This document shows, piece after piece, positions 19,079-50,661 of a DNA stretch of 50,661 bases. The first letter of the stretch is position 1; the number at the start of each line of letters is the position of its first letter. The stretch lies in NCBI GenBank assembly GCA_012511885.1, contig JAAZFE010000014.1, positions 1 through 50,661 on the forward strand, read 5' to 3'. The position numbers and the translations under genes are program-made. The notes under the pieces were generated by a model that had not been told where the DNA came from, did no database searches, and worked only from the letters and a program-made list of their open reading frames with translations. The DNA is from Lentisphaerota bacterium (GTDB lineage Bacteria > Verrucomicrobiota > Kiritimatiellia > CAIQIC01 > Lenti-01).

Positions 19079-20212
19079 TCACCAAAACCGGTAATATTGC
19101 GCGGTGACGAGCGTGTCTTCGCCACGGTGGGGCGTGTCGAGCTGATGTTCTACGGCCAGGGCCACCCAGTGCAGGGTCGAGCTGGCGACTTCGTTGCGGA
19201 AATAGCGGGTGAGCATGGCCGAGGCGCGCTGATCCGTCGCGCGCGAGGGTTGCGTGTCGCGTTGCAGCCAGACATATTGCGCCAGGGCGCCCCAGCGTCG
19301 GCCGGGATTAAGCCAGTCCACCTGGACCAGGCTGGACCAGATGGCGTCGTCTTCGTCTTCGCCGACGGCGGCTTCCAGCGTCATGGTGAAGGGGCCGGTG
19401 GGCGAATCCATCCGCTTGCGGGCGTCGAGTCCGAGACGCCACGTGGAGACGGGGTCGCGCGTTCCGGTGTGGGGATCGAGGCGCCGGCCCCAGGCCGCGC
19501 TGAGGCCGGCTTCGAGGCCGTGGGCGAATAGAAAGGTGTTGGCCAGGCCGAGTCGGCCGGCCAGCATTCCGTGCTGCCCGTTCAGGCGGTCGTTGGGGCC
19601 GGCGCCGAGCAGGTAGCCCAGTTGATAGTCCAGATGTTCCGTGGCCTTGCCGAAGGCGGTGGCCTGCCAATCGTGTCCGGCGCCGAAGAGGCGGTGGTTC
19701 GAGAACTGCCAGAGCGTGCCATGGGTGTCGGTTTGGGAATCCAGGCCGAAAGGCAAGTCGTAGCGGCCGAGACGCAGGTGGAGCCGCCCCGAGGAGCCCA
19801 GCAGGTTGTACAGCTCCACATACGCGTTATGGGTTTCATAGGTCCAGGCCTGCCCGTCTTTGGCCATGGGATCGTTGGCGGAGTTCAGCGGATGCTGGCG
19901 GTACACCAGACGGCCCTGGTAGTCCACCGAGGCATAAGTTTTGGTGGGGGTGGCCAGGCGTTTTTGAGCCTCGAAGCCAACCGAGAGCCGTACGTGGACG
20001 TTATCAGTGTGGCGCACGTCCCGGCGGCCGGCTGTGGCGACCGCCTGCAGTTCGTTGCGCCAAAGAAGGTTTTCGCGCCAGTTCGGCGCGGTCTGGCTGG
20101 CCGGGGGCCGGACGGGATGGGGCTGGACATCGGCAAAGGGGTCCGACGCGGTAGCGATGGCCGCGCAGGCCGCCCATGCCAAAATGAACCAGCCTGGATT
20201 ATTCATCAACAT
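19079..20212 (-). CDS. Outer-membrane porin-like beta-barrel protein
   Basis: The product has about 377 residues. A weakly charged signal-like start (NNPGWFILAWAACAAIATAS) is followed by many amphipathic strands with alternating aromatic residues (LHLRLGRYDLPFGLDSQTDT; HLDYQLGYLLGAG; GALAQYVWLQRDTQ). It ends in ...TAQYYRFW with a terminal aromatic, as outer-membrane barrels do. No TonB box or plug is seen. ATG 20212 is one of three possible starts (TTG 20224, ATG 20212, ATG 20206). All lie inside a dispersed repeat element, so the original 5' end of the gene seems to have been replaced. No ribosome-binding site is evident. It heads the tight run of five genes behind csoR. Confidence 0.65.
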   Translation of the reverse strand: MLMNNPGWFILAWAACAAIATASDPFADVQPHPVRPPASQTAPNWRENLLWRNELQAVATAGRRDVRHTDNVHVRLSVGFEAQKRLATPTKTYASVDYQGRLVYRQHPLNSANDPMAKDGQAWTYETHNAYVELYNLLGSSGRLHLRLGRYDLPFGLDSQTDTHGTLWQFSNHRLFGAGHDWQATAFGKATEHLDYQLGYLLGAGPNDRLNGQHGMLAGRLGLANTFLFAHGLEAGLSAAWGRRLDPHTGTRDPVSTWRLGLDARKRMDSPTGPFTMTLEAAVGEDEDDAIWSSLVQVDWLNPGRRWGALAQYVWLQRDTQPSRATDQRASAMLTRYFRNEVASSTLHWVALAVEHQLDTPHRGEDTLVTAQYYRFW

Positions 20213-20408
20213 GGATAAAAACAATGTTATTTGCTGCAGAGCAGCATGATGCGGAAGTAATCATGAGAAATTCAGTTTTCATCCATGTTGCCCAAGGGCG
20301 CGACGATTCCAGTCCATCTGCTTTGTTCTGCGAGGTTCGCTGTATGCCAAACCAGCTTCACCCCGCCCGCCTCGCATTTGAACTGGACTTGTCGCATGCA
20401 TAATTCAG
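20194..20408 (+). repeat. Dispersed 215-bp repeat, copy A (full length)
   Basis: The left end CTGGATTATTCATC and right end GCATAATTCAG form an imperfect terminal inverted repeat. Internally there are TTCATC-AACATG-GAT, TGCTGC-AGA-GCAGCA and the invariant GCGACGATTCC at 20300-20310. The copy lies inside the csoR operon and its left end overlaps the first codons of the porin-like gene. Confidence 0.85.
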
Positions 20409-20423
20409 GTCAGACCTTGCGCA

Positions 20424-23190: not shown

Positions 23191-23196
23191 CCTTAA

Positions 23197-23249
23197 TCTT
23201 TCATCAACATGGACGGAAAGAACGATGCTGGCTGGGGAGCAGCAGGATT
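23197..23249 (+). repeat. Dispersed repeat, truncated head fragment
   Basis: TCTTTCATCAACATGGACGG and then GAGCAGCAGGATT correspond to the left 55 bp of the repeat. The rest is missing and a full copy begins directly after it. Confidence 0.65.
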
Positions 23250-23465
23250 CTGAATAATTCATCAACATGGATGAAAGTATTGTTATTTTCTGTGGGGCAG
23301 CATGATGCGGATATTTGGATGAAAAAAAATATTTTTCATTCCTGTTGCCCTTCGGCGCGACGATTCCAACCCGTCTGCGGCGTTATTCGGGGTTCACAGT
23401 ATGTCCATACAGCTTCACCCCGCCTGCCTTGCATCCGGGCCGGACTTGTCGCGTGAATGATCCAG
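23250..23465 (+). repeat. Dispersed 216-bp repeat, full copy C
   Basis: It begins CTGAATAATTCATC and ends GTGAATGATCCAG. It contains GATGAAAAAA...TTTTTCATT as an internal hairpin, GCGACGATTCC at 23357-23367, and a CGGGGT...ACCCCG stem around GTATGTCCATAC. It lies between the rhomboid gene and tatD. Confidence 0.85.
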
Positions 23466-23479
23466 GGGATGTGGAAATG

Positions 23480-23628
23480 CAAGTAAAAAAAATTTTCCTT
23501 CCATGTTGTCCTCTGGTGCGACGATTCCGCCCCATTGCTATCGTCTTCGAAGCTCGCAGTATGCCAATATAGTAGCTTCGTCTCGAACGCATTGAGTCCG
23601 GGGGAGACTTGTCGCGTGAATTCTCCAG
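23480..23628 (+). repeat. Dispersed repeat, diverged tail fragment
   Basis: The right part of the repeat is present without its head: CCTTCCATGTTGTCC, GCGACGATTCC at 23518-23528, CTCGCAGTATGCC and GACTTGTCGCGTGAATTCTC at the end. It is more diverged than the copy beside it. Confidence 0.7.
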
Positions 23629-23637
23629 GTTGTAAAC

Positions 23638-23756
23638 CATTCTCACATATTATAATAAGTGAGAATATGAGAATATATAACATTCATGTTGCCAATATGT
23701 TATGACTATTATATTTTGCAAATTCATTCTCACTTATTATAATATGTGAGAATGAA
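23638..23756. repeat. AT-rich 119-bp element with perfect 29-bp inverted ends
   Basis: The 29 bases at 23638-23666 are the exact reverse complement of 23726-23754, and each arm is itself a near-palindrome (ATTCTCAC...GTGAGAAT). The right arm extends to 11-bp arms TTCATTCTCAC/GTGAGAATGAA. The segment is strikingly AT-rich in this GC-rich genome. It appears inserted within or beside an old copy of the dispersed repeat (CATTCATGTTGCC at about 23680). No coding capacity is seen. Confidence 0.75.
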
Positions 23757-23812
23757 CTTGTTGTTGGAGCGACGATTCCGGCTTGTCCGGGGTGTTATTC
23801 GGGGTTTGTGGA
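23757..23812 (+). repeat. Dispersed repeat, short fragment after the AT-rich element
   Basis: GCGACGATTCC at 23769-23779 followed by GTGTTATTCGGGGTTTGTGG aligns with the middle of the repeat. The right end is lost. Positions 23813-23893 show nothing beyond the tatD leader. Confidence 0.6.
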
Positions 23813-26654: not shown

Positions 26655-26681
26655 ACGGGCTTGGAAGGTCCAAGCCCGTTT
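26655..26681 (+). terminator. Rho-independent terminator after the patatin-like gene
   Basis: A perfect 10-bp stem ACGGGCTTGG/CCAAGCCCGT with the loop AAGGT is followed by TTT. It lies 30 bp after the stop and directly before repeat copy B. Confidence 0.8.
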
Positions 26682-26684
26682 AGT

Positions 26685-26894
26685 CTGGATTATTCATCAA
26701 CATGGATGAAAGTATTGTTATTTGCTGCAGGACAGTATGATGCGGAAATAATCATGAAAAAACCGGTTTTCATCCATGTTGACCCATGGCGCGACGATTC
26801 CAACCCGTCTGCTTTGTTCTGCGGGGTTCGCAGTATGTCCATACAGCTTCACCCCGCACGCATCTGGACCGGACTTGTCGCGTGCATAATCCAG
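26685..26894 (+). repeat. Dispersed 210-bp repeat, copy B (best ends)
   Basis: The ends CTGGATTATTCA and TGCATAATCCAG are inverted over 12 bp with one mismatch. CAACATGGATGAAA near the left recurs inverted as TTTCATCCATGTTG 60 bp later. The right half forms TGCGGGGT...ACCCCGCA around GTATGTCCATAC. The core GCGACGATTCC is at 26791-26801. It sits between the convergent patatin-like and rpsT genes. Confidence 0.88.
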
Positions 26895-26937
26895 GTTAGG
26901 GGGAAGGCGCTGGCGCGCCAAAGAGAGGGGGGGAAAC

Positions 26938-50337: not shown

Positions 50338-50338
50338 C

Positions 50339-50446
50339 CTGAATAATTCATCAACATGGATGAAAGTATTGTTATTTGCTGCGGAGCAGTATGATGCGGA
50401 TATTTGAGTAGGAAAAGTTATTTTTCATCCCTGTTGCCCTTCGGGG
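50339..50446 (+). repeat. Dispersed repeat, copy D (right half missing)
   Basis: CTGAATAATTCATC at 50339 begins the repeat. It follows the others through TTTTTCATCC and CTGTTGCCCTTCGG and then diverges at about 50446, where GGTGTAGGACAG replaces the GCGACGATTCC core. It starts directly after dtd. Confidence 0.82.
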
Positions 50447-50519
50447 TGTAGGACAGATTTTTGCGCGAAACGCAAAATAGGCTTGCAGTCCGCGCAACTA
50501 TAGCCTAGATTACTAGGCC

Positions 50520-50661
50520 ATGAAGACGCGATCCCATCCAAACCGTCGAGGCCAGGAGATTCTGGCGCAAATGGGGCAAATCCCCGTGATGATTCAAGGC
50601 AAGGTTTCTGAGCGTCGCCAAGGCGGCCGGGTGACCGGCCTCAAGTTGCAACGCTGGCGCA
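50520..50661 (+). CDS. Partial ORF at window edge, possible mobile-element helper
   Basis: ATG 50520 opens a frame of 47 residues that runs off the window: MKTRSHPNRRGQEILAQMG, then IPVMIQGKVSERRQGGRVTG and KLQRWR. I do not recognise it with confidence. The basic composition and the fragment 'QGKVSERR...LQRWR' recall short proteins found beside insertion-sequence transposase genes. Upstream lie the inverted repeats TTTTGCG-CGAAA-CGCAAAA (50459-50477) and GCCTAG-ATTA-CTAGGC just before the ATG. These and the truncated repeat at 50446 are consistent with the left end of an inserted element. Confidence 0.4.
   Translation, partial: MKTRSHPNRRGQEILAQMGQIPVMIQGKVSERRQGGRVTGLKLQRWR

Follow-up and report, generated by a model that had tools for sequence, protein, structure and literature searches.

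A 217-bp MITE family in a Lentisphaerota bacterium, most likely moved by an IS1380-family transposase

A structured repeat recurs in the 50,661-bp stretch of Lentisphaerota bacterium DNA analysed here (the window), which raises the question of what kind of element it is and what moves it. The sequence-only reading had described it as about 210 bp long, with four loci (20194, 23250, 26685 and 50339) and fragments at 23197, 23480 and 23757, and had proposed a MITE whose transposase lies elsewhere, a REPIN-like repeat or an RNA-level structure. Copies in the window were placed by an nhmmer profile search with a 217-position model (Table 1). All four loci were real, with the true ends one base outside those proposed and only the left half present at the last. 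The first two fragments proved to be halves of one split copy, and the third is a 40-bp scrap of the core. The repeat itself was confirmed, at a consensus length of 217 bp and with 212 bp in the copy at 26684; other copies matched the query with blastn E values as low as 5e-91. The consensus, with left end CCTGRATWATTCATCAAC and right end GCGTGMATWATYCAGG, is too short to hold a transposase gene.

Copies in the window have the ends CCTGG...CCAGG, except that the copy at 26684 starts TCTGG, and the sequence CACGCGACAAGTCC belongs to the ends. The terminal inverted repeats (TIRs) are about 10 bp long and imperfect (CCTGRATWAT...ATWATYCAGG), and most of their columns were more than 90% paired, the exceptions being columns 5/222 and 8/219; the ends are inverted, as had been proposed. 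The core GCGACGATTCC, said to be identical in five copies, was indeed found five times in the window (20300, 23357, 23518, 23769 and 26791). Two other sequences adjoin these copies. That at 50447-50661, in place of the right half of the copy at 50338, is found again where contig C92 ends (97.6% over 124 bp); with an ORF near 50521, it may represent a further insertion sequence. At 23638-23754 lies a 117-bp near-perfect palindrome (CATTCTCAC...GTGAGAATG) with 29-bp perfect arms. It is one of at least seven copies scattered through the genome and represents a separate repeat family, unrelated to the adjoining MITE scrap near 23757.

Table 1 Copies and pieces of the repeat placed in the window, with target-site duplications.
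Feature	Position	Strand	Remarks
Full-length MITE copy, 217 bp	20193..20409	+	profile match; flanks CCAG/TCAG, 3/4 positions agree
Left part of older MITE copy, model positions 1-58	23191..23248	+	profile match
Younger full-length MITE copy within older copy	23249..23466	+	profile match; GGAT/GGAT flanks
Right part of older MITE copy, model positions 59-217	23471..23629	+	joined with 23191-23248, exactly 217 bp
MITE core scrap, GGAGCGACGATTCC...	23766..23806	+	40-bp piece
Left TTAG target-site duplication of 26684 copy	26680..26683	.	
MITE copy, 212 bp, with 5 bp of the 217-bp consensus deleted	26684..26895	+	full-length nhmmer match; TTAG on both sides
Right TTAG target-site duplication of 26684 copy	26896..26899	.	
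Left half of MITE copy, model positions 1-108	50338..50446	+	profile match; right half replaced by other sequence

The host draft genome comprises 2.49 Mb in 166 contigs (84.6% complete), and the profile-match and flank counts cover 1.66 Mb of it. The profile search recovered many further copies: 181 matches in the 1.66 Mb examined, 75 of them near-full, with all matches together making up about 1.7% of its length. Exact GCGACGATTCC was counted 124 times over the complete draft, compared to 0 for the reversed control. The end of an examined stretch, mostly a contig end, was reached by 43 of the 181 matches, as expected because repeats break short-read assemblies, and the abundance of the MITE helps account for the high contig number of the draft.

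Target-site duplications were assessed in the 70 copies having both flanks. Exact 4-bp duplications were present in 36 of them, and in 47 if one difference was allowed, compared to a mean of 6.1 and a maximum of 16 in 2000 random flank re-pairings. The duplicated site is mostly NTAN, preferably with Y at the first position and R at the last (YTAR; for example ATAG, TTAG, CTAA, CTAT and CTAG), and TA occupied the two middle positions in 58-61 of the 70. A rough gene call placed 65 of these copies between genes and showed 5 overlapping a gene end, with none inside a gene; the coding share of the same sequence is about 76%. Neighbouring gene 3' ends were no more than 10 bp from the MITE in 17 of 49 cases.

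Nested insertions were found at two places. In the window, the pieces at 23191-23248 and 23471-23629 represent a single older copy into which the one at 23249-23466 has inserted. Deletion of the younger copy and one GGAT duplicate gave an older copy of exactly 217 bp, and its profile score was 130.9 when joined, compared to 19.0 and 90.7 for the separate halves. The second case lies on contig C93, where the duplication is CTAC; the older 217-bp copy was again restored. This anatomy shows that the MITE is transposed by an enzyme producing 4-bp duplications, for the most part at NTAN sites.

These results also bear on the proposal of palindromes of the REP/REPIN type, mobilised by a Y1-type (HUH) RAYT transposase. 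REPs use Y1 transposases, and two proteins with a Y1 transposase domain are encoded in the genome; the repeats, like REPs and REPINs with RAYT, are extragenic, structured and present in high copy. REPs, however, are not known to have target duplications, nor is Y1 transposition known to produce 4-bp ones, whereas here half of the copies carry such duplications, insertions are nested with duplication, and the ends are common to the MITE and IS1380, a DDE-type IS. REPs are also 20-40 bp long (PMC3733652), and the MITE is 217 bp with inverted ends. The REPIN-like identity was set aside as extremely unlikely.

A longer, different element with the outer 18 bp of the MITE was identified at eight contig ends of the host genome. 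Its left ends (C9, C12, C28, C55 and C106) are identical over 120-126 bp and continue into ATGAAGAAGTCTATCACACCTGATCTGTAT, and its right ends (C44, C74 and C76) are identical over 123 bp. The left end leads into an ORF start, MKKSITPDLY, the counterpart of MKTFTTPDLP in the same-genus genome G001, which has two intact copies of the IS. These are 1620 bp long, with 19-bp perfect TIRs (CCTGAATAATTCATCAACC), 4-bp YTAR target duplications (CTAA and TTAG) and one 450-aa ORF. The ORF encodes a DDE transposase that fits the IS1380 family (NF033539, 382 and 385 bits with a curated cut-off of 180 bits; PF13701, E 1e-147). A full transposase element with the same ends, which the sequence-only reading had suggested looking for, is intact in G001 and seen as ends in the host. 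The interior of the IS1380 transposase was not found in a search of the assembled host bin (G000), which gave IS ends only. The main gap in the partner assignment is that the host IS1380 element is known from its ends alone, the intact transposase having been read in the sister species G001.

The MITE and this IS are alike in the outer 13-18 bp and in the 4-bp duplication. Of the 19 bp of the IS end, 18 are matched by the left end of the MITE and about 13 by the right end, which resembles the IS TIR less closely. By blast, likeness was limited to the ends, and the interior of the gene-less MITE is unrelated to that of the IS. As only the ends match, an origin of the MITE by simple internal deletion from this IS was rejected. 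Inside its outer 13 bp, the right end departs from the IS1380 TIR, which would be in keeping with mobilisation by a different transposase, such as one of the IS1634 family, of which the genome has three, or one from an element absent from the assembly. The ends of the single IS1634-family element inspected (CCCAAGTTCCGCAGTTG) are apparently unrelated, and this family was rejected as the partner on that ground. The 18-bp end match together with the identical 4-bp YTAR duplication makes IS1380 the likely mover, and we consider another transposase highly improbable. Immediately outside the inspected IS1634-family element (L056, 683-2680) is a left end, ATAG-CTTGGATTATTCATCGC, similar to IS1380-type ends.

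The proposal of a MITE with its transposase elsewhere is borne out by the inverted ends, by the 4-bp duplications, by two cases of nesting in which the empty site could be restored, and by an IS1380 element with matching ends in the genome and genus. We conclude with high confidence that the repeat is a MITE, a gene-less 217-bp transposon that inserts mainly at NTAN/YTAR sites with a 4-bp duplication and is most likely moved in trans by a resident IS1380-family DDE transposase. Such a transposase would recognise the ends common to the IS and the MITE and would move the latter in trans; on the evidence of the sequences, its action on the MITE is very likely. We infer that part of the family has spread recently.

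The IS1380 family comprises prokaryotic relatives of piggyBac, with members such as IS1247, ISEcp1 and ISPme1. IS1247 is 1672 bp long with a 5-bp DR (PMC3281130), and piggyBac, a distant eukaryotic relative, targets TTAA (PMC10140906), which fits the NTAN preference of the MITE. A bacterial MITE driven by IS1182, MITEPye1, has been described (PMC11578231). The repeat is similar to that type in being short, gene-less and intergenic, with IS-like TIRs, target duplications and stem-loop folds; it differs in its likely partner, IS1380, and in its more than 100 copies, compared to 1-3 per chromosome. No IS1380-driven MITE was found in the papers searched, which covered MITEs in connection with IS1380, Kiritimatiellae and Verrucomicrobia, so the present case would extend the list of MITE-driving IS families. 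The family appears to be undescribed, as the sequence-only reading had supposed: Rfam, plasmids, phages and IMG/VR gave no match, and the papers searched describe no such member. It is very abundant, its probable autonomous partner belongs to the IS1380/piggyBac group, and its host is an uncultured bacterium of Kiritimatiellae type, from a class that has been little studied.

The hairpins said to nest inside the element were recovered in the computed consensus fold, which consists of the TIR stem, a left hairpin and a compound right hairpin. The hairpin arms covary (GGATGAA/TTCATCC, GAATGAA/TTCATTC and GGCTGAA/TTCAGCC; GTAT/ATAC and GGTT/AACC), and mosaics between arm types are present among the copies. 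A functional structured RNA, regulatory or small, amplified in the genome and selected for its fold, would be consistent with the RNA folding z-scores (-4.7 and -4.2 for the two strands), with a covariation score of 0.105 (0.060 shuffled, at most 0.042 slid) and double changes in 13 pairs, and with the strong conservation of the GCGACGATTCC core. The variable pairs, however, held 83 A.C mismatch cells and 54 G.U cells. Since A.C is at least as common as G.U and both strands fold about equally well, nothing favours a plus-strand RNA. The arm changes track subfamilies, so that the cells are not independent and the covariation is no test on independent events. Numerous copies are broken, nested or truncated, and an Rfam search of the window gave two tRNAs as its sole matches, with none for the MITE above the gathering score. 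The RNA-level proposal thus gained no positive evidence, and we regard it as very unlikely. The internal hairpins probably belong to the MITE as DNA and not as a functional RNA, and the covarying arms are more simply read as a DNA-level palindrome that the subfamilies have inherited. It is doubtful that the three-way-junction fold (left hairpin of about 15 bp, compound right hairpin around GCGACGATTCC / GGACTTGTCGC) is kept by compensatory change for a role beyond carrying the ends; such a role might be that of a cruciform aiding replication-coupled transposition, or an action at gene 3' ends.

The distribution of the MITE was assessed in 56 genomes and then in 17 family members. Among the genomes searched, well-preserved copies occurred only in its own genome, in the same-genus G002 (217-233 bp, with CTAG/TTAG duplications in 4 of 6) and in the same-family G011, likewise with YTAR duplications; traces were present in G010, G015 and G047. 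No MITE was found in G001, where the IS is present, and no IS was detected in G011, where the MITE is present. A scan of genome contigs with the exact left-arm pattern gave 16 matches, mostly apparent single-copy chance matches in unrelated phyla, the informative ones being two Kiritimatiellae/Verrucomicrobia MAGs.

A second form of the MITE, 170-179 bp long, has the same ends and a different left half (GATGCGGCCGGGCCGCAGCATGGAAGCAAGGGAGCG), with 4-bp duplications in 2 of 7 copies when the flanks were read by eye. End-to-end remnants of 15-36 bp also occur, one bearing a perfect CTAA duplication, and these look like deletions between two element ends. Palindromes of 15-22 bp made of two joined element ends (CCTGRATWATTCAGG) were seen at L127 19218, L071 686, L131 16037 and elsewhere, some with NTAN duplications, which suggests end-to-end deletion remnants or footprints. 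A 157-bp element (GAGCATTTTCATCAATTCTG...TTCTTCAAATGCTC), located at L074 17516-17672, L217 4765-4922 and 13 other places, is usually TA-flanked; both the MITE and the IS1380 element have landed at its TA(G) edge.
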